Assembly (NCBI RefSeq): GCF_000974785.1
Contig: NZ_BBWV01000004.1
Span: 372,001 to 436,000, forward strand
Length of the DNA stretch: 64,000 bases
Direction: 5' to 3'
From: Flavihumibacter petaseus NBRC 106054
Lineage (GTDB): Bacteria; Bacteroidota; Bacteroidia; Chitinophagales; Chitinophagaceae
Shown one piece after another: positions 1-51,747 of the stretch. The position numbers and the translations under genes were made by a program. Every line of letters begins with the position of its first letter. Positions within the stretch are counted from its first letter, which is position 1. Under the pieces are notes generated by a model that made no database searches, had not been told where the DNA came from, and worked only from the letters and a program-made list of their open reading frames with translations.

Positions 1-300
1 ACCGTTGATGGGTGCCAGGTGAAGGTGTGCATGCGGAATTTCGAGGCCTATAACGGCTGCGCCTACCCGATCACAGGGAAAAGCCTGTTCAATGGCTTTT
101 GCGATGGGCTTGGCAAATACAAGGATCTCAGACAGGTAAGTATCCGGCACTTCGAAAAACTTATCCACTTCAATTTTGGGAACGACCAGTACATGACCGT
201 GTACCAGGGGGAAGATATCGAGGAAAGCGTAAAATTTATCGTTTTCGGCGACCTTGTAGGCAGGGATTTCGCCGTTAATGATCCTGGTGAATAATGTCAT
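1..300 (-). CDS. HIT family nucleotide-binding hydrolase, 3'-truncated by window edge
   Basis: Reading from ATG at 300 towards base 1, the first 100 codons are open and begin MTLFTRIINGEIPAYKVAEN, the usual opening of bacterial HIT/PKCI (HinT-like) proteins. The triad motif HAHLHLAP falls at about residues 90-97. The family hydrolyses nucleoside phosphoramidates or related AMP conjugates in the cytoplasm; the exact substrate cannot be told. The ATG overlaps the stop of the upstream exported-protein gene in an ATGA arrangement, so the two are probably translationally coupled and share the promoter at 1006-1063. The C-terminus lies outside the window. Confidence 0.9.
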   Translation of the reverse strand, partial: MTLFTRIINGEIPAYKVAENDKFYAFLDIFPLVHGHVLVVPKIEVDKFFEVPDTYLSEILVFAKPIAKAIEQAFPCDRVGAAVIGLEIPHAHLHLAPING

Positions 301-1001
301 CTTGCGGTGATTGGTTGCAGATCTGCCCCCAATGACATCGTCAGTTTGATCTCTTTTGCGTCCCAGGTATCAAAGAAAGGCTGCCAGCGGCCCATACTGT
401 AAAAGATATCGAAAAGCTCCCTTTCGTTGGCAGGAATGTCTTCCTTATCTGCCCATTCCACATTGGTCACCTTGCCCGATGCATTGATGGTGAGTACAAA
501 GTTATGGTTCCAGTTGGGAATGGTATTGCTTTTATAATAGGCTGCGCTGAAATATTCCTGCAGTCTTGCACGGCCAAACATGTACAGCGGATCGATCTTG
601 GTGGTGTAACAGGTCTTAAGGTCTTTCAGATCGCCGTCAGAGAAACCTTCGGGTAACCTGTCGAGTTCGATCCTGAATTTGTCGTTTACCCAGGAGAACA
701 GGCCGCTGATGGGCTGACCATGGTAATAATAGATGAAGTGTTCGGAACTATCTTCCGGCGAAAAGCGGAGCAGGGTAGTGTCGCCGGCGGAATTATAGAA
801 CACGCGCGGCCCGGTGGGCTGATCATTGTGGAAAGCGCATTGCATCCTGACAGTGCCGGTGCTGTCGAAAAATAGCCATTCTCCCTGCTTTCTGCCCTGT
901 TTGTCCAGCGCGTTCAGCTGCATTCCTTTCCAGGCGATCGTCTTCTGTGCGAGGAGACCGAGCGGAAGGAGGAGGACCAGCAGGAATAGTTTTTTCAACA
1001 T
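297..1001 (-). CDS. exported MORN-like repeat protein, function unknown
   Basis: 234 residues with a clear N-terminal signal peptide ending at about residue 19 (LLLPLGLLAQ). Residues about 25-100 contain short beta-hairpin phrases (GRKQGEWLFFDSTG, QPTGPRVFYNSAG) like the MORN-type repeats of Bacteroidota exported proteins. The last 100 residues (VLTINASGKVTNVEW) resemble the TonB C-terminal-like fold seen in other exported proteins of this phylum. Its stop overlaps the HIT start. The ATG lies only about 4 bp past a -7 box that is preceded by a four-copy 11-bp array, suggesting a near-leaderless mRNA under the same regulator as the phosphate island. No enzymatic motif is visible. Confidence 0.8.
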   Translation of the reverse strand: MLKKLFLLVLLLPLGLLAQKTIAWKGMQLNALDKQGRKQGEWLFFDSTGTVRMQCAFHNDQPTGPRVFYNSAGDTTLLRFSPEDSSEHFIYYYHGQPISGLFSWVNDKFRIELDRLPEGFSDGDLKDLKTCYTTKIDPLYMFGRARLQEYFSAAYYKSNTIPNWNHNFVLTINASGKVTNVEWADKEDIPANERELFDIFYSMGRWQPFFDTWDAKEIKLTMSLGADLQPITAR

Positions 1002-1005
1002 GCCG

Positions 1006-1063
1006 CAAAGCTACCGGCCCAATGTTACCTCAATGTAAAGTCAATGTTACCGGAATATTAACT
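1006..1063 (-). promoter_or_regulatory. Promoter with four-copy 11-bp Pho-box-like array
   Basis: On the minus strand TAGCTTTG (1013-1006) matches the Bacteroidota -7 element TAnnTTTG. Exactly 6 bp upstream are four contiguous 11-bp units (1020-1030, 1031-1041, 1042-1052, 1053-1063) with plus-strand cores ATGTTAC, ATGTAAA, ATGTTAC, ATATTAA. The 11-bp period and position in place of the -33 element match how PhoB/OmpR-type regulators bind direct repeats. Core, spacing and orientation match the six-copy array at 24489-24554. Confidence 0.75.
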
Positions 1064-18089: not shown

Positions 18090-18210
18090 AGATATCGGGC
18101 GATTCAAAGGTACGTCCAATAGTGAAGAACGCAATTACCCCCCCTTTGCGTATGCAAACCGCTTAACAATTTCATAATCGGTTGAAAAATCAGGGGTTAC
18201 ACAAGGGCAT

Positions 18211-18218
18211 TAACTTTG
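18211..18218 (+). promoter_or_regulatory. -7 promoter element of the phoB-like gene
   Basis: TAACTTTG matches TAnnTTTG, 16 bp before the ATG at 18235. At the register used by the Pho-like arrays (6 bp upstream) there is one degenerate unit (GTTACAC, 18196-18202). Autoregulation is possible but weakly supported. Confidence 0.5.
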
Positions 18219-18234
18219 CGTAAACAAATTGTTA

Positions 18235-18921
18235 ATGGACACCAAGGGAAAAAAGATACTCATTGCCGACGACGAACCGGATATCCTGGAGATTATTCAG
18301 TATAATCTACAGGCTGAGGGGTATGAAGTATATACGGCAAAGGATGGTGATGAGGCTTTGGCGCGGGCAAAACAGATCAAACCGGATCTGATCATACTTG
18401 ACATCATGATGCCCAAAAAGACCGGGGTGGAGGTTTGCGAATTATTGCGGGCGCAGGCGGCTTTCAAAGATACCCTGATCATATTCCTGACAGCGTTGAA
18501 CGATGAAGGCAGCCAGATGAAAGGCCTCGACACCGGCGCGGATGATTACGTAAACAAACCGATCAGTCCAAAGTTGCTGCTGAGCCGGGTGAATGCCCTG
18601 TTCCGCCGGGTCAGCAAAAAAGACGCACCGGTCAACGGGGTACTGGCCATAGAAAATATGGTAATCGACCCGCATAAGTTTGTGGTGATGGTCAACCAGG
18701 AGGAGAAAGTGCTGGCAAAAAAGGAATTCGAACTGTTATACCTGCTTGCTTCCCGGCCCGGTAGGGTATTCCTCCGGAATGAGATCCTGAACCAGGTATG
18801 GGGGAACGACGTGATTGTAGGCGACAGGACCATCGATGTGCATATCCGGAAGATTCGTCAGAAACTGGGGCTGGATTGTATTACCACTGTAAAGGGTGTA
18901 GGATATAAATTTGACCTGTAA
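18235..18921 (+). CDS. PhoB/OmpR-family response regulator
   Basis: 228 residues. Receiver domain (about 7-120) with acidic pocket ADDEPD, phospho-acceptor Asp about 56 (LIILDIMMP), Thr in FLTALND and the invariant Lys in DYVNKPIS. The C-terminal winged helix (about 135-228) ends with RTIDVHIRKIRQKLG and VKGVGYKF, typical of PhoB/PhoP. The ATG at 18235 is preferred over a TTG 6 bp upstream. It is followed 32 bp later by its histidine kinase. The downstream phosphate transport genes and 11-bp repeat arrays point to a PhoB role, which is an inference. Confidence 0.92.
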   Translation: MDTKGKKILIADDEPDILEIIQYNLQAEGYEVYTAKDGDEALARAKQIKPDLIILDIMMPKKTGVEVCELLRAQAAFKDTLIIFLTALNDEGSQMKGLDTGADDYVNKPISPKLLLSRVNALFRRVSKKDAPVNGVLAIENMVIDPHKFVVMVNQEEKVLAKKEFELLYLLASRPGRVFLRNEILNQVWGNDVIVGDRTIDVHIRKIRQKLGLDCITTVKGVGYKFDL

Positions 18922-18953: not shown

Positions 18954-20006
18954 ATGTTCAATTTTAAAAATCTATCACCCCGGCAGGTGGCCGGTGTGCT
19001 GGCATTTTCAATTGCCGCACTCGTCAGCCTGGCGAACCTCGCGCTCGATAAATCCTGGAAGATAGCCTTGATTTATTTTGCGCTTCTTTTCATTGTCTCC
19101 TATGCGCTGATCTTCTATTTCCTGCAGCAATTCATCTACCGGAGAATCAAACTCATCTACAAATTCATTTACCAGACCAAGGCCAGCAAGCGGGAAGAGT
19201 TTTACAACAAGTACATCATTCCCCAGAAGAGCATTGACGAAGTGAAGGAAGATGTAGAGAAATGGGCAGAGCAACGGGAAGGCGAGATCCGGATGCTGAA
19301 GAAAAATGAAGCTTTCCGGAAAGAATTCCTGCAGAATCTGGCGCATGAATTCAAGACGCCGATTTTCGCCATCCAGGGCTATGTGGATACATTGCTCGGC
19401 GGCGCCATGGAGAATACGGAGGTACGGAAAAAATTCCTTGAAAATGCCAGCCGCAATGTAGACCGGCTGGTGAACCTGATGACGGACCTCGACGAAATCT
19501 CAAGATTGGAATCAGGCGAACAGGTGTTGTATAAACAATACTTTATCATCCAGGACCTGGTAAGGGAAGTTATTGAATCGCTTTCCATCAAACTCAGCCA
19601 GAAACAGATTACTGCGTCCATAAAAAAAGGGTGCGAGTCCCCTCCCATCTATGTCTTTGCTGATAAGGAAAAGATCCGTCAGGTAGTGATCAACCTGGTG
19701 GCGAACGGTGCCAAGTACGGCAAACCAGGAGGAACCATTGTAGCCAGCATGTACAATACAGATGAATTCAAAGTACTGGTGGAGATCAGTGATGACGGCA
19801 TCGGGATTGAAGAAGAACATCTGCCCCGCATCTTTGAACGTTTTTACCGGACTGACAAAGCACGTAGCCGCGATAAGGGCGGTACCGGACTTGGTCTTGC
19901 CATTTGCAAACATATTATTGAAGCGCACGGAGAATCCATGCATGTGCGCAGTAAGCCGGATGTCGGCACCACGATCGGCTTTACACTCCCTTCCAGCAAA
20001 GAATAA
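18954..20006 (+). CDS. PhoR-like sensor histidine kinase
   Basis: 350 residues. Two membrane helices (about 11-29 and 36-57) with only a very short outer loop, then a HAMP-like linker, HisKA with His about 131 (LAHEFKTPIFA) and HATPase with N box (VVINLVANGAKYG), G1 (DDGIGI), and G2 (GGTGLGLAI). The tiny extracytoplasmic loop means it probably does not bind phosphate itself and instead senses through a partner, as PhoR does. No PAS domain is visible. It is the probable partner of the upstream regulator. Confidence 0.92.
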   Translation: MFNFKNLSPRQVAGVLAFSIAALVSLANLALDKSWKIALIYFALLFIVSYALIFYFLQQFIYRRIKLIYKFIYQTKASKREEFYNKYIIPQKSIDEVKEDVEKWAEQREGEIRMLKKNEAFRKEFLQNLAHEFKTPIFAIQGYVDTLLGGAMENTEVRKKFLENASRNVDRLVNLMTDLDEISRLESGEQVLYKQYFIIQDLVREVIESLSIKLSQKQITASIKKGCESPPIYVFADKEKIRQVVINLVANGAKYGKPGGTIVASMYNTDEFKVLVEISDDGIGIEEEHLPRIFERFYRTDKARSRDKGGTGLGLAICKHIIEAHGESMHVRSKPDVGTTIGFTLPSSKE

Positions 20007-20149
20007 AAAAGCCAACGTATGGAGATACACCGGCTTCACTGCATGAGAAAAAGCTAACGCTTTTGTACACAACAACTGAGATATGTATGACAGCCCAAAG
20101 CTAGGGCTGCAGTGTTACTGCAATTTGACCTGCACATTACGGAACTATG

Positions 20150-20200: not shown

Positions 20201-21589
20201 TCAGTAAGTATTGTTTTTCGGATTGAAGCTGGTCCAGCCCTCCATCCAGTTGGTTGTACCAAATGCTCCGCGGAATGTTGTCGGTGTGAAGAACACATCC
20301 ATCCCGGTAAAGTTGCCGCCTGTCAGCGCAGGAGAGCCGGCTTTCGGCAAGAAGTTGGGCGCGTTCAGGTTGAACGGATCAGTCAGTTGTACATCATCGC
20401 GGGATGGCAGCACAGTGTTACCCTGGGCAGCAGCAAAAGCCTGAAGCTGTGCAGCCGTGAAAACTGTGGAGGCGGGGTCGGGAGCCGGGTTACCGCTACC
20501 ATCTTTCTTGTCTTCAGAAGTATAATACGGATTTTTATACACTGCAATGATATTGTCCATGAATTCAGACAAACCATCTTTATAAGCCTGCGCGGTCTCT
20601 TTACTTTCCATAGAGAATCCCGCCTTGCGATGGCCGATCAGGAGAGAGTTGCGCAGCACGAAACGGGTGGAACGGCGCCAGCGGTTGCTGTAGCCATGGT
20701 TGGCGCTTGAACCGGTGGTATCGTATGGTCCGATCAGCGTAAGATTGCTCAGCTGGGGGCGTGTAAATGGTTCTGTCTGTGTACCACTGCCATCATTATC
20801 ACACTCAATGCCGTTGGCCTGATCTGTATCTGCCGGCTTGTCGCGAAGGGAAACTGCATATTGGATCTTTCCGGTATAGCCAAAGTCGAAGTCATAGTCA
20901 TCATCCATTGTACCGAAAGCAACCAGGTTTTTACAATTTACAGTACCGCCAAAAAATTCGTACGCATCATCACCACCGTAAGAAACCTGAACGTTCTCAA
21001 TAATAGTACCCGCACCAACACCGCCGAAGGTGATGCCGTTGATCTCTGAACCCGGCTCGGCAGCGATACCGGAAAATTCAACCCTTACATATCGCAGGAT
21101 ACCACTGTTGTCGTTAGGATCAGTTCCGCCGTAGGGGCGGCCGATTCCGCCCTCAATAATGGGCGCTGGTGATGTGGGACGGTTGGTGGGTGCTTTGCCC
21201 AGCAAAATAATACCTCCCCAGTCGCCGGGCTGACGTTCGCCGGCAGCCTTACCGGAGGTGAAGATGATCGGTGCGTCGGGGCGCCCATCGGCTATGAGCT
21301 TGGAACCCCGTTCAATAATCAGCGCACCTTTATCTGCCACATCGCTTTTGATAATGGTGCCTGGTTCAATAGTAAGCGTAGCGCCATTGTTCACATATAC
21401 ATACCCCTTCAGTGTATATACACCTGCTGCAAGGGTACGGCTCTGGTCAATCGTTCCGTTCAGCACCTTGCTGGTGGAGTCTGTCCCATCCGGCGGATAG
21501 TTGTATTCGTCGCCCACTTCCACCTTGATGCAACTGCTGATCATGAGTGCACTCACTGCAACTGCTGTTATTTGCTTTACCAATTTCAT
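20201..21589 (-). CDS. beta-helix lipoprotein, partner of the TonB receptor
   Basis: 462 residues. Lipobox ISSC with Cys about 20 marks an outer-membrane lipoprotein. The body has the repetitive pattern of a right-handed parallel beta-helix (GYVYVNNGATLTIEPGTIIK, GALIIERGSKLIADGRPDAP, IIENVQVSYGGDDAYEFFGG). It begins 38 bp after the TonB receptor gene and ends at the shared terminator, so it occupies the place SusD-like proteins take beside SusC receptors. I infer surface capture of a phosphorus-containing substrate because of the Pho-like control; the actual ligand is unknown. Confidence 0.82.
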   Translation of the reverse strand: MKLVKQITAVAVSALMISSCIKVEVGDEYNYPPDGTDSTSKVLNGTIDQSRTLAAGVYTLKGYVYVNNGATLTIEPGTIIKSDVADKGALIIERGSKLIADGRPDAPIIFTSGKAAGERQPGDWGGIILLGKAPTNRPTSPAPIIEGGIGRPYGGTDPNDNSGILRYVRVEFSGIAAEPGSEINGITFGGVGAGTIIENVQVSYGGDDAYEFFGGTVNCKNLVAFGTMDDDYDFDFGYTGKIQYAVSLRDKPADTDQANGIECDNDGSGTQTEPFTRPQLSNLTLIGPYDTTGSSANHGYSNRWRRSTRFVLRNSLLIGHRKAGFSMESKETAQAYKDGLSEFMDNIIAVYKNPYYTSEDKKDGSGNPAPDPASTVFTAAQLQAFAAAQGNTVLPSRDDVQLTDPFNLNAPNFLPKAGSPALTGGNFTGMDVFFTPTTFRGAFGTTNWMEGWTSFNPKNNTY

Positions 21590-21627: not shown

Positions 21628-24453
21628 TTATTTGCGTTTCTTAAGTTCAAAATCGTAGGTGAAGCCGATGGTGATGGTGGTTCCCGGCTTGTAACTGCTG
21701 AAGATCCTGTCCTCACCGTTAAATGCTTTACCTGAGCTCCTGTTCTCGTAAAGTGTAATGGAGTTGTTGAAGATGTCGCTTACACTGAGTTTTAATTCAC
21801 CTCTCCTTTCCATGATCTTGCGCGATAACTGGAAGTCAAGCAGGTTCCGCGGACGTTCATAGATATCCGGGAATTCCTGCTGAAATTCTCCGTTGACATC
21901 CTTGGTAGGCGTGCTGCCTACGAGTGCCAGGCGCGGTCCGATGACATTGTACAGGAGCGTTGCACTGAAAAGCTTGTCTGAAGTATACTGGATACCGGCA
22001 TTCACGAGATATGGCGACTGTCCCTGGATCGGACGGTTGCTGTTGATTGGCTGTCCTGATGTTTCGTCGGGAAAGCTGACATCAGAGAACAGGTAAGTGA
22101 TGTTTCCGAAAGCAGTCATGTTGCTGAGCACTTTGCTGCCCTTGTTCAGGAAATCGAGGTTTTTCCTGAATTCAAGTTCTGCTCCATAGGTATTGGCGTC
22201 TGTGGCGTTCTGATAAAAGTATTGGCGGCGGTCTGCATTGGAACCCGGATCAAGCCTGAACTCGATGGGATTCTTGAAATTCTTGTAAAAAGCGCCAACA
22301 GAAAAAGTTTCTCCTGCTGCAGGATAGATTTCATACCGTACATCAAAGTTGTTGATCTTGGTACGCTTCAGGTCCGGGTTACCCACGATGCCGTAGTTGG
22401 CTTCATAATCAAAGAAGGCAAACGGAGCAATCTCCCTGAACTCTGGCCGTGCAACAGTCTGGAAGGCTGAGAAGCGAAGGTTGTTTTTGGTGTTCAGCGA
22501 CCAGGTCAGGTTGACGGAAGGAAGGAAGTCCCATGTTTCCTGGTCAACATCCACTCTTTTGGCTTCCTGGTTCTTGGTAGTCAGGTACTGTTCAAAAAAT
22601 TCCAGCCTGGCTCCCCACACTAATCTTACTTTTTCACTCAGCTTGTTGTCAAACATGGCGAAACCAGAATTGATGGTGGAGATACCAAAATACTTATCCT
22701 GATTGTTGGTAAAGTCGTCCAGCACAAATCCTGTTCTGCTGATATTTTCTTTTTTAAAGATCTGGTCGTAGGGAAGTGATGCCAGTTCCTGGTTGAAGTT
22801 GGATTGATTGGTTTCCACATACCGGAAAATGCGACTCTGGAAATCGCGGAAACGAATGATCGTTGAAGCGCCGCCCTTGAATTGCTGCTTTTGTCCAAAC
22901 AGTTCGAAAGGAAGGGTCAGTGCTCCCGAAGCCGTAATCGTATGATCCTGCAGGTCACTCCAGAAACGGCGGGTGTCATCGGGATCGATTTCAAATTTAT
23001 TGCTGCCGATCGCACGCACATACTGCTGCGTGCGCAGATCGGGCTGGGAACGGGTAACGAGTGAATAACCGGTGTTCCAGCGGAACTTCATCTTTGCCAG
23101 TTTCAGCTGGTGATCGCCCTCAAATTGTCCGCTGTAAAAGCTTCTCTGGTTCAGGAAAGAGGAATAAAAATTGATATCCTGGTTCCGGTTGGAGTTAAGT
23201 CCGGTGCGAACGAAGTAGTTGTCGTCATAGAACCGGTTGAAAATATTCTTGAAAGAGATTTTGTTGTTCTTCTGGGCATAGGTGATATTCACCAATGCAC
23301 CGATATTGGTCTGGTAGCGGTTCTGGTTATCAGTCAGCTGAAAGATAGGTGTGGCATCAGACTGCAACAACTGGCGCTGCACATCATATTTCAGCATGGT
23401 GTTGCGATATATGACAGATGCGATAAAGCCCAGTTTAGCATCATTCTTCAGTATGCGTGTGGAACCATAGGCAAGATTGTAGGTTTGTGCTGGCCTTGCA
23501 GTGGCATTCGCCTGGGCGTACACATCATCACGCATGAGCTGCGATTTGGAGATCTGGTCATCAACAGGAAGTGCGCGGTATTCCTGGGGAGTTGCCGGAA
23601 ATGCGGAAGGGAATTTCCTTGTTCCGTTATCCCATCCCAGCCAGTCTGTGCTGGTGCGGGGGTTGCTCGTGAAATCCCTGAATACTGAATTCAGGTTGAA
23701 CCCCAGCTGGAAACCGATAGAAAGGAAATCTTTTGTAGGTACATCCTTTGTCTGCACCTGGATCAGGCCACCGGCAAATTCACCGGTCAGTTCCGGGGTG
23801 GCTGTTTTATTGATCACAATATTGTCGATCATATTCGCGGGGATCACATCAAAGGAGAATGCCTTGCGGTCCGGTTCACTTGAAGGCAGCTGCGAGTTGT
23901 TGATAAAGGCGGCATTATACCGGTCGCTAAGACCACGAACGATTACGAATTTGTTATCCTGGATACTGGCGCCGCTCACACGCTTCAACACTTCACCCGT
24001 AGTGCGGTCAGGTGTCCTCCTGATCAGGTCGGCTGCTATACCGCTGGATACTGCTGTATTGTTCCGCTGAAGATTGATGAGTGCGCTGGTAGTTTCTTTC
24101 CGCACTGAACTTCTTACTACTACCTCTCCCAGTTCTGATTTGCTTTCGAGTACAACAGAGAGTGTATTGTCTTCACCTGATTTCAGTTCAACATCTTCAA
24201 GTGATTTGGTGGTATATCCGGCACTCGAAATCTTAAGGGTGTATTTCTTTCCGGGTTCCAGCTGCAGGGTAAATCTTCCTTCCACATCAGCGGCTGTTTT
24301 ACGGTTGGTACCATCTACTGTAATGGTAGCACCAGGAACAGCTTCGTTACGGGAATTGATCACTTTTCCGCTGAGCCTGAGGCTGCTTTGGGCAGAAAGT
24401 TTCAGCAATGCGATCAGAAGAAAACTCAGCAGAAATAGGGTCTTTTTGCGCAC
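21628..24453 (-). CDS. TonB-dependent receptor under Pho-box-like control
   Basis: 941 residues from GTG 24453, which gives a compact signal peptide (LFLLSFLLIALLKLSAQ). A longer frame starts at TTG 24477, but that codon lies in the -7 box. Order: carboxypeptidase-regulatory-like domain (LSGKVINSRNEAVPGATITV), plug (ADLIRRTPDRTTGEVLKRVS, FVIVRGLSDRYN) and a large barrel ending in aromatic ITIGFTYDFELKKRK. It would import a nutrient using TonB energy. It is cotranscribed with the beta-helix lipoprotein and preceded by six 11-bp repeats. Confidence 0.92.
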   Translation of the reverse strand: MRKKTLFLLSFLLIALLKLSAQSSLRLSGKVINSRNEAVPGATITVDGTNRKTAADVEGRFTLQLEPGKKYTLKISSAGYTTKSLEDVELKSGEDNTLSVVLESKSELGEVVVRSSVRKETTSALINLQRNNTAVSSGIAADLIRRTPDRTTGEVLKRVSGASIQDNKFVIVRGLSDRYNAAFINNSQLPSSEPDRKAFSFDVIPANMIDNIVINKTATPELTGEFAGGLIQVQTKDVPTKDFLSIGFQLGFNLNSVFRDFTSNPRTSTDWLGWDNGTRKFPSAFPATPQEYRALPVDDQISKSQLMRDDVYAQANATARPAQTYNLAYGSTRILKNDAKLGFIASVIYRNTMLKYDVQRQLLQSDATPIFQLTDNQNRYQTNIGALVNITYAQKNNKISFKNIFNRFYDDNYFVRTGLNSNRNQDINFYSSFLNQRSFYSGQFEGDHQLKLAKMKFRWNTGYSLVTRSQPDLRTQQYVRAIGSNKFEIDPDDTRRFWSDLQDHTITASGALTLPFELFGQKQQFKGGASTIIRFRDFQSRIFRYVETNQSNFNQELASLPYDQIFKKENISRTGFVLDDFTNNQDKYFGISTINSGFAMFDNKLSEKVRLVWGARLEFFEQYLTTKNQEAKRVDVDQETWDFLPSVNLTWSLNTKNNLRFSAFQTVARPEFREIAPFAFFDYEANYGIVGNPDLKRTKINNFDVRYEIYPAAGETFSVGAFYKNFKNPIEFRLDPGSNADRRQYFYQNATDANTYGAELEFRKNLDFLNKGSKVLSNMTAFGNITYLFSDVSFPDETSGQPINSNRPIQGQSPYLVNAGIQYTSDKLFSATLLYNVIGPRLALVGSTPTKDVNGEFQQEFPDIYERPRNLLDFQLSRKIMERRGELKLSVSDIFNNSITLYENRSSGKAFNGEDRIFSSYKPGTTITIGFTYDFELKKRK

Positions 24454-24474: not shown

Positions 24475-24554
24475 CAAAACTAGTTGCGTAATGTTACCGT
24501 GTTGTTATTGGCTGATTAACGAATTGTAACGCTAATATTACCGGAATGTTACCT
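24475..24554 (-). promoter_or_regulatory. Promoter with six-copy 11-bp Pho-box-like array
   Basis: The minus strand carries TAGTTTTG (24482-24475), a full -7 match. Six bp upstream begin six contiguous 11-bp units (24489-24499 to 24544-24554). Their plus-strand cores are ATGTTAC, TTGTTAT, TGATTAA, TTGTAAC, ATATTAC and ATGTTAC. The last unit reaches the porin stop codon. Six units could hold three dimers of a PhoB-type regulator. Spacing and orientation are identical to the array at 1020-1063. Confidence 0.8.
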
Positions 24555-25858
24555 CAGAAGCGGAATTGCAGCCGAACCGTCAGAACGTTGTCGCTCAGGT
24601 CTTTGGTATATCCCGGAAGATGGGTGGATTCGTTGGTGACAAAGTCGTACCAAAGTACCAGTTTGAGGTTCTGGTTGATATAATTGAGGTAACCCAGCCC
24701 GAGTGTATTGTAGCGGATATCCGCGGCGTGGTAATTGCCTTCTTCCCTGATGTCCTTCCCCCTGACCTTGGTATTCGGATCGTACCAGTCATATTTGGCT
24801 GCAAACTGGTGCTTTCCGATGGAATGTAACAGGTAAAAGAATGCACCGTTAAACGGTCGCGTATAGAGAGGTTCAGTTGGTAATCCCCCGGGGGTCTCAC
24901 TGGTCAGGGCCAGTGATGTCTGGCGGCCGAACCAATACTCAGCCCTTACGATGGTTTTACTTTTGGGATGCTTGAACTCCCATTGCATGTCTGCACCAGC
25001 ATATTGCCTTGGTGCCTTGCTGCCCACATTGCCTTCGCTGGAATCCACCACAAAACCCTTTCCCTCTTCCATATTATATATGTACTTCGAGCTCTGCATG
25101 AACCCGCCATACAGCAAAGACATAGCAGCAGACAATTTTATTTTCGGGGTTAGCTGCCTGGGTTTCATCCCGGCCCGCATGATCAGGTCTTTATAGGAAT
25201 CATATTCCGTTGGTCCGGTGAGGCCCTGCCCATTGAATACGCCAAAGTCCACCTTTAACCACGCATACTTGTGACCTTTCCGCCTGGGTTCAAAACTGAC
25301 CATGGCCCCCAGGTCGCGCTCAGTGCGCATCAGGGTCTGTGACATCCGTCCCCTTTCCGGCGATTCCCGGTCAATGGAGGACAGGTTGACTTCGTAACCG
25401 AAAGGCCGGGCAAACATCCCCATGGCCAGGGTAAATACTTCCCACCGGTTTTCGAATACCCTGCCCCAGAAATCCCGGATAGCGACCCCCCTTTCGGTGC
25501 CATCGAACTGAAAGGCAAACTGCACACTGGCCTTTTCATCTTTATTGAACCGGGTATAATCGAACCGGACCCGTCCTCTCCTGAGCATAAACCGGCTGTT
25601 CACATTGGGAGGGAAATCCGGACCAGCAAAAGTGCGGATACCCTTTTCAGATGCCAGCTGGAACTGGGGCTGCATATAGCCAATGATGGTGAGGTAATTG
25701 TACTTTTCGTAGATGCCCAGCAGGTTCTTATTGGTCATTTTTGACGTGTCCATCATATCCATCAGGAACTGGGATTTCGCATGAAAGTTTAGTCCCAAAC
25801 ACATGAAAACCAATAGAAAAAGATTCCTGAAGTACCGTGAAACCTGCGTTAACGCCAT
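24554..25858 (-). CDS. OprP/OprO-type phosphate-selective porin
   Basis: 434 residues with a signal peptide ending near residue 30 (LNFHAKSQ). The barrel shows the OprO/P family pattern: FMLRRGRVRFDYTRFNKDEK near the N-terminus, repeated amphipathic strands, and a terminal Phe (LTVRLQFRF). Such porins pass phosphate or pyrophosphate across the outer membrane. It is divergent from DUF47-PiT and upstream of the TonB receptor gene, whose promoter array begins at its stop. Anion selectivity is inferred from family and context. Confidence 0.88.
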   Translation of the reverse strand: MALTQVSRYFRNLFLLVFMCLGLNFHAKSQFLMDMMDTSKMTNKNLLGIYEKYNYLTIIGYMQPQFQLASEKGIRTFAGPDFPPNVNSRFMLRRGRVRFDYTRFNKDEKASVQFAFQFDGTERGVAIRDFWGRVFENRWEVFTLAMGMFARPFGYEVNLSSIDRESPERGRMSQTLMRTERDLGAMVSFEPRRKGHKYAWLKVDFGVFNGQGLTGPTEYDSYKDLIMRAGMKPRQLTPKIKLSAAMSLLYGGFMQSSKYIYNMEEGKGFVVDSSEGNVGSKAPRQYAGADMQWEFKHPKSKTIVRAEYWFGRQTSLALTSETPGGLPTEPLYTRPFNGAFFYLLHSIGKHQFAAKYDWYDPNTKVRGKDIREEGNYHAADIRYNTLGLGYLNYINQNLKLVLWYDFVTNESTHLPGYTKDLSDNVLTVRLQFRF

Positions 25859-25880
25859 ATTACCAAATTATTAACGGCCG

Positions 25881-25995: not shown

Positions 25996-26643
25996 ATGTC
26001 CATATCGTCCATCCTGAAATTATTCACTCCCAAGGACAAGGTTTTTTATTCCTTATTTGAAGAGGTGGCTGGTACTGTGGCTAAAATGGGCCGGTTGATG
26101 AAGGATGTGGTCAACGAGACTGATTTCGACAAAAGGGCGGCGCTGATCGCCCGGATGGAAGACCTGGAACATGTAAACGACGATCTTACCCACAAGATCT
26201 TTACTGAATTGGGCCGGAACTTCATTACTCCCTTTGACCGGGAAGACATTCACTACCTGGCCAGTTCCCTTGACGATATCTGCGACTATATTTTTGCTTC
26301 TGCCAAAAAGATCAATTTCTACCGTGTTAACCCCAACGATCCCGGGATCCAGAAGATGGCTGACCTGATCGATCAGGGTGCGGACCAGATCCGGAATGCG
26401 GTGCTTGAACTCCGGAACATGAAAAACATGCGGCAGATGACAGATGCGCTGGTTAAGGTAAACAGCATTGAAAATCAGGCCGATGATATATTTGACCTCA
26501 GTATTGACCGGTTGTTTGAAACAGAACCCGATGCGAAAGAGGTTATCAAAAAAAGAGAGATCTACCAGGTGATGGAAATCGTTACAGACAAGTGCGAAGA
26601 CGCCGCCAATGTGATCGAAAGCATCATCATCAAATACGCGTAA
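25996..26643 (+). CDS. DUF47 family (PhoU-like) protein, partner of PiT
   Basis: 215 residues, all-helical, with the PhoU/DUF47 pattern: DKVFYSLFEEVAGTVAKMG at the start, a mid-protein E/DxxxD cluster (LASSLDDICDYIFASAKKI) and KCEDAANVIESIIIKYA at the end. DUF47 proteins are encoded next to PiT carriers and are thought to control their activity. Cytoplasmic. The next gene begins 12 bp later and is the PiT carrier, so they form one operon. Confidence 0.95.
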   Translation: MSISSILKLFTPKDKVFYSLFEEVAGTVAKMGRLMKDVVNETDFDKRAALIARMEDLEHVNDDLTHKIFTELGRNFITPFDREDIHYLASSLDDICDYIFASAKKINFYRVNPNDPGIQKMADLIDQGADQIRNAVLELRNMKNMRQMTDALVKVNSIENQADDIFDLSIDRLFETEPDAKEVIKKREIYQVMEIVTDKCEDAANVIESIIIKYA

Positions 26644-26655
26644 CCACTCCTTCGT

Positions 26656-27696
26656 ATGACCTTTCTCGTTATCATCATTGTTCTCGCGCTGGTTTTCGAT
26701 TATATCAATGGATTTCATGACGCGGCCAACTCCATTGCCACTATTGTTTCTACCAAAGTACTGACGCCGTTTCAGGCGGTTTTGTGGGCGGCATTCTTCA
26801 ACTTCGCCGCCTTTTTTATTTCCAAATACTGGATCGGGGAATTTAAGATCGGCAATACGGTAGCGAAATGGGTGAATGAAGATTTTATCAACCTGCATGT
26901 GGTTTTCTCGGGATTGATCGCAGCCATCGCCTGGAACCTGATTACCTGGTGGTTCGGCATTCCTTCCAGCTCCTCCCATACGCTGATGGGTGGATTTCTT
27001 GGCGCGGCACTTGCGCACGCAGGGGGACTCAGCCAGAATGGGCACAATGTGGTAAACTATGCCAAGGTAATTCCAACTTTCCTGTTCATTTTCCTGGCGC
27101 CACTCATCGGTATGGTGATCGCCTATATTATAACGGTGATCATCCTGAACATCTGCAGGAAGGCTATACCGCACAAGGCCGACAAATGGTTCAGGAGGCT
27201 GCAGCTGGTATCCAGCGCCCTCTTCAGCCTCGGGCATGGCGGTAATGATGCCCAGAAAGTTATGGGTATCATCGGTGCAGCCATCATTTACCACGATAAG
27301 ATGAAGGGCATTTCCATGGATTTCAACACTTTTGTCAATATCTACTGGTGGGTACCGCTGGCCAGCTTTACTGCAATCGGTCTCGGAACACTGAGTGGTG
27401 GCTGGAAGATTGTCAAAACAATGGGAACCCGTATTACCAAAGTTACACCGCTGGAAGGTGTTGCCGCTGAAACTGCAGGTGCAGCCACCTTGTATCTTAC
27501 CGAGCATCTGGCCATTCCCGTTAGTACCACGCACACCATTACCGGAGCAATTATTGGTGTGGGCGCAACCAAAAGATTATCTGCAGTCCGCTGGGGTGTT
27601 ACGATCAACCTGTTATGGGCCTGGATCCTGACGATCCCCGTCAGCGCCCTTTTTGCAGCGATCATTTACTTCCTGGTGAAATTGTCCGGAATCTAA
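26656..27696 (+). CDS. PiT family low-affinity inorganic phosphate transporter
   Basis: 346 residues with about ten membrane helices. Both family signature regions are present: [20 protein letters not shown] at the start and [18 protein letters not shown] in the second half, plus the paired SSSHTLMGG and [12 protein letters not shown] motifs. It carries phosphate, probably as a metal complex, with protons or sodium across the inner membrane. With the porin and TonB receptor next door, it completes a path from outside to cytoplasm. No high-affinity PstSCAB system is in the window. Confidence 0.96.
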
Positions 27697-50897: not shown

Positions 50898-50941
50898 CTT
50901 AGGGTCTGCTTAGGGTCACCTTAGGGTCACCTTAGGGTCCT
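50898..50941 (+). repeat. Four-copy 11-bp tandem array CTTAGGGTCAC
   Basis: CTTAGGGTCTG, CTTAGGGTCAC, CTTAGGGTCAC and CTTAGGGTCCT follow each other without a gap. Period equals one DNA helical turn. It lies about 180 bp before the promoter of the sigma/Dma-like operon, so it may be a regulator binding site. Confidence 0.85.
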
Positions 50942-51119
50942 TTACTTCAGTCATAAATCCCCGTGCTCGCATGGGCGAACAAAGGTTAAAGCACATCAGG
51001 AGCAGCAACAACAAACAAAACCATTTACCACTAACCTCCAGGAAAACTTCCCTTGAAACCCTCCTTTCGTACTTCGTTACAGGCAATCTGTCGTTTCTTC
51101 AGCATGCGGAAAGTCAATT

Positions 51120-51127
51120 TAGATTTG
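51120..51127 (+). promoter_or_regulatory. -7 promoter element of the second sigma operon
   Basis: TAGATTTG matches TAnnTTTG, 41 bp before the sigma ATG at 51169. Confidence 0.5.
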
Positions 51128-51168
51128 GATGTAAAAAAATCTTAAATTACAAATGCATAAAGTTCTGT

Positions 51169-51747
51169 ATGACAGAAGAAGCGCTGCTCCAGGGATGTCT
51201 TCAAAATGATCCGATCGCTCAGAAAGCACTGTACCAACGGTACAGTTCACGCATGCTTTCCGTTTGCTATCGGTTCGCGCACAACCGCGAGGATGCCGAA
51301 GACATGTTACAGGAGGGCTTTATCAAGGTTTTTTCACAAATCCACACATTCCGTTCACAGGGCGCATTTGAAGGCTGGGTACGCCGGATAATGGTCCACA
51401 CCTGCATTAACCATCTCAAGCGCAACAAGAAATTTAATGAGAGTGTAGACATTATTCATGCGTCGGGGCTGCAAACACGCGAGGAGACGATTCCGTCAAT
51501 TGTTCAGGCCAAGCAGATTGTGGAATGTATCCGGCTGCTGCCTATTGGGTACCGGACGGTGCTGAACCTTTATGCCATTGAAGGCTATTCGCACAAGGAA
51601 ATTGCTGCCGTGCTGGATATAGAAGAAAGCACGAGCAGGTCTCAATATACCCGAGCCCGGCAGATGCTGGAGGAAATCCTGGTTAAACGAAAAATCATGC
51701 AAAAACCCCAGGAGAAATTGCCATTGTTAGCAGCGTTTGGCCGCTAA
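51169..51747 (+). CDS. ECF-type RNA polymerase sigma factor
   Basis: 192 residues from ATG 51169, which gives the usual sigma start MTEEALLQGCLQNDPIAQKA; the open frame upstream contains the promoter. Region 2 (EDAEDMLQEGFIKVFSQIHT) and region 4 (LPIGYRTVLNLYAIEGYSHK with SQYTRARQMLEE) are complete. It is followed 57 bp later by a protein that may span both membranes and hold an anti-sigma domain, so its activity is probably set by outer-membrane state. Confidence 0.93.
   Translation: MTEEALLQGCLQNDPIAQKALYQRYSSRMLSVCYRFAHNREDAEDMLQEGFIKVFSQIHTFRSQGAFEGWVRRIMVHTCINHLKRNKKFNESVDIIHASGLQTREETIPSIVQAKQIVECIRLLPIGYRTVLNLYAIEGYSHKEIAAVLDIEESTSRSQYTRARQMLEEILVKRKIMQKPQEKLPLLAAFGR

Follow-up and report, generated by a model that had tools for sequence, protein, structure and literature searches.

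Tandem 11-bp repeats as a predicted Pho box upstream of a TonB-dependent receptor gene, and a candidate small RNA gene, in Flavihumibacter petaseus

The PHO boxes of PhoB and PhoP have been described in Escherichia coli, Bacillus subtilis and Streptomyces, and their consensus varies between species (PMC4415409; statements on published systems refer to the passages cited from each paper). In the phylum Bacteroidota, PhoPR of Riemerella anatipestifer is up-regulated in phosphate starvation; its PhoP has a motif with the core TTTAACA in DNA affinity purification sequencing (DAP-seq) and shifts the promoter of a TonB-dependent receptor in electrophoretic mobility shift assays (EMSA) (PMC9603813). 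PhoB of Bacteroides fragilis binds the pstC promoter in EMSA and is required for pstC expression in low phosphate (PMC3547664). In Flavobacterium johnsoniae, the PhoBR cluster (PUSIV) holds PhoB, PhoR, a TonB receptor, a lipoprotein and OprP together; the receptor and the lipoprotein are strongly induced on depletion of inorganic phosphate (Pi; 8.02 and 9.91, taken as log2 changes), and OprP is not induced (PMC8115612). Here we describe a stretch of 64,000 nucleotides of Flavihumibacter petaseus NBRC 106054 (contig NZ_BBWV01000004.1, positions 372,001 to 436,000; the window), in which six tandem 11-bp repeats lie upstream of a TonB-dependent receptor gene. These repeats are, with high probability, a Pho box, the predicted operator through which the PhoB-like regulator encoded at 18235-18921 activates the receptor and a lipoprotein under phosphate shortage.

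The repeat array upstream of the receptor gene

Array 1 (24488-24553, minus strand) consists of six 11-bp direct repeats with the consensus GGTAACATTnn, 5' of the receptor gene. Read on the minus strand from 24553 to 24488, the units are GGTAACATTCC, GGTAATATTAG, CGTTACAATTC, GTTAATCAGCC, AATAACAACAC and GGTAACATTAC, all head to tail and in phase, so the six tandem units reported in a preliminary description of this DNA are real. A porin gene ends immediately before the array (its stop codon is at 24554), and the spacer GCAAC (24487-24483) separates it from the -7 promoter box TAGTTTTG (24475-24482, minus strand), which is present as reported. The distance between them had been given as 6 bp; in the in-phase register it is 5 bp. 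The shared core seen earlier also stands, but not its strand: the receptor gene is on the minus strand, where the coding unit is GGTAACATTnn, and TGTTAC belongs to the non-coding strand. The upstream regions of 17 receptors give GGTAACATTGC as the coding-strand consensus of the unit, in which the core TAAC/TAAT is strongly conserved. This consensus rules out an E. coli-type Pho box; the earlier remark that the core differs from CTGTCAT holds to that extent, although it compared the non-coding strand. The B. subtilis box, TTAACA, is closer to the unit found here.

Units 4 and 5 are the weakest of array 1 (6.3 and 5.7 bits, respectively), and both are retained across the genus, where their counterparts read GTTAACnnnnn or GGTAACnnnnn, and nnTAACAnnnn. 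The output of Tandem Repeats Finder does not include array 1. The receptor start in the list of open reading frames (ORFs), TTG 24477, falls within the -7 box, and the start common to the relatives is GTG 24453. The receptor gene with this conserved start (21628-24453, minus strand) matches Pfam PF13715, PF07715, PF00593 and PF14905.

Array 1 is not unique: the window holds two more arrays of this layout, which the preliminary description missed. Array 2 (1006-1062, minus strand) has four units, 5 bp and the box TAGCTTTG, 5' of a gene at 297-1001. Array 3 (20096-20141, minus strand) has three units, 5 bp and the same box. A pattern of two units plus the box has five matches in the genome, namely the three arrays of the window, L002 and L005.

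The layout is conserved among receptor orthologues. Receptor homologues are present in 34 of the 39 genomes searched, F. petaseus included (55 entries), and we examined the upstream regions of the first 38 entries, the window's among them. A four-unit matrix trained on 17 of these 38 regions scores 22 of them above 28, compared with 6.7 for the best of 190 simple shuffles; the other 16 score below 28 (five of these above 6.7), and every one belongs to a homologue at 40% identity or less. Six units, a 5-bp gap and TAnTTTTG are found in all ten Flavihumibacter orthologues of the receptor (70-76% identity), and the array layout (11-bp period, 5-bp gap, TAnnTTTG) is also kept in other genera. The period of 11 is the best in all 22 scoring upstream regions, and the 5-bp gap in 21 of 23. 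With a matrix of three units, gap and box made without the window, arrays 1, 2 and 3 score 34.2, 38.7 and 26.3, respectively. The best score anywhere in the window is at most 5.9 at other periods and 17.7 to 28.6 at other gaps, versus 38.7 at a gap of 5; the high scores at other gaps arise because an array scores well even by itself. With a closely similar matrix made with the window included, chance scores in 40 simulated 64-kb sequences rose no higher than 8.9. A plain three-unit pattern is less decisive; with two mismatches it finds 29 sites in the 39 genomes, versus two for its control. A chance repeat is ruled out by the scores of simulated sequences, by the period and gap tests, and by the reversed-profile control described below.

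Promoters of Bacteroidota are of the -7/-33 type. By eye, no -33 element is evident at array 1, which together with the fixed 5-bp spacing supports activation. Following the example of PhoB, phosphorylated regulator molecules would occupy successive units in tandem, all head to tail, and bring RNA polymerase to the -7 box. The promoter-proximal regulator may contact sigma and stand in for the -33 element, and the remaining units would add affinity.

Sites across the family and the adjacent regulator

To locate further sites, we use a sequence-only profile (R1) made from 20 sites of relatives, none of them from the F. petaseus genome. On the whole 5.69 Mb, R1 gives three sites at E<0.003: array 1, positions 1006-1051 of array 2 (E 1.8e-8), and C22:1267034 (L090), which lies 5' of a second receptor/lipoprotein pair. 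The next matches are another part of array 1 (E 0.094) and C20:242479 (E 0.096), and the weak matches outside array 1 (E 0.096 to 7.2) stand mostly before unrelated genes. Array 3 is missed by R1 and is recovered by a degenerate pattern and by the weight matrix. In the Chitinophagaceae, R1 matches 63 of 98 genomes at E<=0.01 (104 sites; five of the matched genomes had contributed training sites), whereas the reversed R1, of the same composition, information and periodicity, matches 2 of 98.

We examined 92 of the 104 family sites. The first gene 3' of the site encodes a TonB receptor at 45 (L128 included), a porin of the L180 type at 8, a lipoprotein at 7, PhoX at 3, PAP2 at 2, and a phytase-like protein, a metallophosphatase and an Exo_endo_phos protein at one each; a small RNA comes first at two sites and a gene of the 297-1001 type at one. 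L180 itself matches Porin_O_P, and the other OprP-like porins match L180 at 46-57% identity. In a scan of the phylum, R1 sites include a PstS gene of another family, which is above the cut-off (259 vs 206.6 bits), and further ones lie before a metallophosphatase, a MauG-like gene and genes that are receptor-like by eye. The enrichment at phosphate genes, which the preliminary description had proposed as a check, is thus strongly positive, covering receptor/lipoprotein pairs, porins, PhoX, phytase-like, PAP2, metallophosphatase and PstS genes. With head-to-tail 11-bp units, a fixed 5 bp before the -7 box and the same layout at the phosphate genes of the family, array 1 is very probably the landing site of a phosphate-starvation regulator. 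It is extremely unlikely that the array is mainly the operator of a repressor, or that it serves a wider outer-membrane nutrient response and not phosphate. The TonB receptors behind 45 of the 92 sites are of unassigned substrate, as such a response would allow, but the fixed 5 bp from the -7 box is an activator position, and the like-placed genes of F. johnsoniae are induced on Pi depletion (PMC8115612).

The likely regulator of the arrays, judging from sequence comparison, is the adjacent PhoB-like response regulator of the OmpR family (18235-18921, plus strand), which has a receiver domain and Trans_reg_C and is the proposed array binder. It scores 222.2 bits with TIGR02154 (PhoB; cut-off 296.2) and 216.8 bits with NF053854 (Bacteroides PhoB; cut-off 270), and it tops the 83 NF053854 matches in the genome, the runner-up reaching 185 bits. 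In a phylogenetic tree, it falls apart from ten genomic paralogues, in one clade (support 100/99) with the regulators L101, L103, L104 and L106, whose genes, in four other families, lie close to receptor/lipoprotein pairs. All members of this clade share the recognition-helix stretch GDRTxDVHIRK, and the residues of the window regulator there differ from all ten paralogues. Attribution of the array to the adjacent regulator, made in the preliminary description, is in this way supported by the best PhoB match and by the clade, binding being predicted. It is very unlikely that the arrays are bound by another member of the OmpR/PhoB family encoded in this genome, with the phosphate genes controlled through that member. 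Ten further regulators match the PhoB profile over the full length of the profile, other members of the family also use tandem repeats, and the regulator of the window is below the PhoB cut-offs. Against this, it is the only one of the eleven known beside arrays (the surroundings of the ten paralogues were not scanned for arrays), none of the others matches PhoB as well, its clade-mates in other families are encoded close to the same receptor/lipoprotein pair, and its recognition-helix residues are unlike those of all ten.

Besides the cut-offs that the regulator misses, several results weigh against the Pho-box reading. In the own genome, the plain three-unit pattern with three mismatches gives three matches, as does its backward control. 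No clear array is present at the lipoprotein gene or at the PhoU_div-PiT operon of the window, nor is any found at L240, the genome's sole PstS-like gene. The putative promoter of the regulator scores 1.0 by matrix, and 9 of 200 shuffles are equally high. Among the 92 family sites, 12 stand before genes of no recognised kind, four before other families, and five have no usable ORF (three at contig ends); 12 score below 15 by matrix, two of these being mis-centred. In the phylum, 11 of 296 genomes match R1 at E<=3e-4, including two that the family set already contains; since R1 is tuned to one family, the 285 genomes that do not match do not show absence. Finally, Riemerella PhoP yields 583 peaks in DAP-seq, and the authors of that study compare its motif to that of ArcA (PMC9603813), so the TTTAACA core is no proof of a phosphate-only regulon.

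The neighbourhood of array 1 had been described as one of phosphate genes, of which the PhoBR-like pair and PiT are present, while the label OprP for the porin is without a Pfam or NCBIfam match. The porin gene lies at 24554-25858 (minus strand), and three weak array-like units (25843-25875, minus strand) extend over its start, with no -7 box at 5 bp. The kinase gene (18954-20006, plus strand) encodes a PhoR/PnpS-like histidine kinase with HisKA and HATPase_c, below NCBIfam cut-offs. The lipoprotein gene 3' of the receptor (20201-21589, minus strand) is identified from gene content and a lipoprotein-like signal seen by eye, with zero Pfam and zero NCBIfam matches; we label it F-lipoprotein after the like-placed, Pi-induced lipoprotein of F. 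johnsoniae (PMC8115612), on placement and gene content and not on sequence alignment. PhoU_div (25996-26643) and the PiT phosphate transporter (26656-27696) are encoded together at 25996-27696 (plus strand), with no array upstream in the window. The weak regulator promoter (18162-18218, plus strand) has two conserved units, CTTAACAATTT CATAATCGGTT (18162-18183, plus strand), and the box TAACTTTG. These units recur in relatives, and the core CTTAACAATTTCATAATCG is also found in L183; they stop 27 bp before the box, which is 22 bp, or two units, farther than in the arrays. L240 is the single PBP_like_2 (PstS-type) match of the genome and adjoins a weak TonB-family match. It is far below the PstS cut-off, and therefore a classical Pst transporter is not found in the genome.

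The gene under array 2 (297-1001, minus strand) has no recognised function. Its ATG is 4 nt past the box (4-5 nt in relatives), suggesting that the mRNA is probably near-leaderless, and the next gene encodes a HIT-domain protein. Outside the window, a degenerate three-unit array at C22:1325402 (L118; R1 E 0.89) precedes an operon of a PlcP-like metallophosphatase and a glycosyltransferase, which resembles lipid-remodelling genes of other Pho regulons. Among 13 Flavihumibacter promoters of this metallophosphatase, the own one included, 11 score at least 10 in a common register with the box, mostly GAnnTTTG, at 5 bp (scores without shuffle control); L219 scores in another register and L218 scores 4.3. 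No array is seen at three more distant metallophosphatase homologues. The -7 boxes of the metallophosphatase operons (L211-L223) and of several small-RNA copies (L072, L074-L077, L079, L080) are GAnnTTTG-like or CAnnTTTG, not TAnnTTTG. Elsewhere in the window, four 11-bp units in tandem, each made of CTTAGGGTC and two variable bases, at 50898-50941 lie just 5' of a gene (50971-51747) that is ECF sigma factor-like by eye; they are possibly the operator of another OmpR-family regulator.

A conserved candidate small RNA behind array 3

Array 3 is directed towards the kinase gene from its 3' side, and behind the array, tail to tail with that gene, lies the candidate gene of a conserved small RNA (20003-20095, minus strand) missed by the preliminary description. 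The RNA is about 90 nt long, counted from a putative start site, and carries the invariant TTTCTCATGCAGT at 20038-20050, followed by an intrinsic terminator at 20008-20037. An alignment of 11 sequences (ten from Flavihumibacter and one from another genus) has the invariant TTTCTCATGCAGT, then a hairpin and a T-rich tail, and the segment UUUCUCAUGCAGU ahead of the terminator is invariant. In the hairpin, 98.3% of the cells are paired, 7 of 11 pairs are changed on both sides, and the covariation score is reached by none of 500 shuffles. Terminators covary in general, and the invariant 13-mer is therefore the more telling part. The locus has what marks a small RNA gene, namely a predicted promoter of its own, a conserved element without a conserved ORF, and an intrinsic terminator.

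An RNA model finds the locus L183 of another genus, held out from it, at 51 bits (E 4e-9). L183 had already been picked by the Pho-box profile, and its sole downstream ORF is the kinase antisense. Strong matches come from two genera besides Flavihumibacter. Each of the 13 strong matches tested lies immediately behind a matrix array whose score none of 200 shuffles equals; the model was built from 11 of these matches, and a twelfth (L077) is nearly a copy. The weaker matches have an array in 6 of 14 cases (L124, L165, L203, L210, L162 and L166, the last being a receptor promoter); the other eight are without one, several of them within transporter coding sequence. Partial matches (L036, L078) and a duplicate (L091) are outside the set tested. 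As the loci were chosen for holding arrays, only the exact placing of the array is informative, not its presence. In G022, a regulator and a kinase 80% and 73% identical to those of the window adjoin the small RNA.

In the window, Rfam gives no match at its gathering score; Qrr (RF00378) matches weakly (17.6 of 50 bits, E 0.44), below gathering. In 1.35 Mb searched with three overlapping 11-mers, the only complements to the invariant segment fall on loci of the RNA itself and on variants, and we therefore propose no target.

In the relatives L071 and L073-L079, a DUF5690-type transporter gene (Pfam tested on L074) lies between the lipoprotein and kinase genes. Some relatives carry an Exo_endo_phos-type protein there; the window has neither. 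The genome's other DUF5690 copies are distant relatives (41% and 38%). That array 3 is a mere orphaned promoter left by the loss of DUF5690 is the less probable reading, as the conserved RNA and its terminator also exist without that gene. A rather doubtful alternative to an independent RNA gene is that the element is the leader, or attenuator, of a DUF5690 transporter gene since lost here. In L071 and L073-L079, the element does sit between the array and the DUF5690-type gene, 91 to 391 nt from the box. However, in the window and L070 the element persists with its promoter and terminator where no transporter gene lies next to it, and in L183 it stands tail to tail with the kinase gene. We consider it somewhat more probable, on balance, that a Bacteroidota Pho box drives a family of trans-acting small RNAs of about 90 nt, with the invariant UUUCUCAUGCAGU, encoded beside the kinase here and in another genus, which perhaps pair with start regions like AUGAGAAA and remodel the outer membrane at low phosphate. 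Such an RNA would carry the response beyond the level of transcription.

Comparison with known systems

The arrays suggest a sequence rule for phosphate regulons, with 11-bp GGTAACATTnn units, a 5-bp gap and TAnnTTTG, in the Chitinophagaceae and probably in other Bacteroidota, a phylum important in the turnover of organic phosphorus in soil. TonB receptor/lipoprotein pairs of unassigned substrate are thereby tied to phosphate, and the predicted PhoB-controlled small RNA, previously unlisted, points to a second layer of the phosphate response. In open PubMed Central papers, we find no such Pho-box rule in print for Bacteroidota; what comes closest is the TTTAACA motif of Riemerella.

Riemerella belongs to the same phylum and has a TTTAACA core; the passages cited describe neither a rule for 11-bp arrays nor a spacing to the promoter (PMC9603813). 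B. fragilis is likewise a member of the Bacteroidota, and the main text of its study names a Pho box, with no motif or consensus (PMC3547664). The receptor of the F. johnsoniae PUSIV has the same Pfam domains as that of the window, a match that rests on domains and gene content, but no operator is described, and a Pho box or motif is absent from the main text (PMC8115612). In marine plcP clusters, bioinformatic Pho boxes stand before genes of the plcP type, much like the site at the metallophosphatase operon of F. petaseus, with no consensus in the passages cited for comparison with GGTAACATTnn (PMC4796936). Caulobacter crescentus, of another phylum, has a surface lipoprotein gene, elpS, which is induced by Pi starvation and co-occurs with the TonB receptor Cc0171; that receptor is reported to be constitutive, and a Pho box is absent from the main text (PMC2996285).

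The PHO box of PhoB and PhoP likewise consists of tandem 11-nt direct repeats, head to tail, 5' of phosphate genes, but the unit here is GGTAACATTnn and not the CTGTCAT of E. coli or the GTTCACC of Streptomyces coelicolor, and the arrays have up to six units with a 5-bp spacing to a Bacteroidota -7 box (PMC4415409). The cyanobacterial SphR boxes CTTAACCT (8 bp plus a 3-bp linker) have a TTAAC core and the same 11-bp step; they are from another phylum, and the array here abuts TAnnTTTG (PMC1906773). By its sequence, the array unit is nearer to the cyanobacterial CTTAACCT and to the Riemerella TTTAACA than to the E. coli CTGTCAT.
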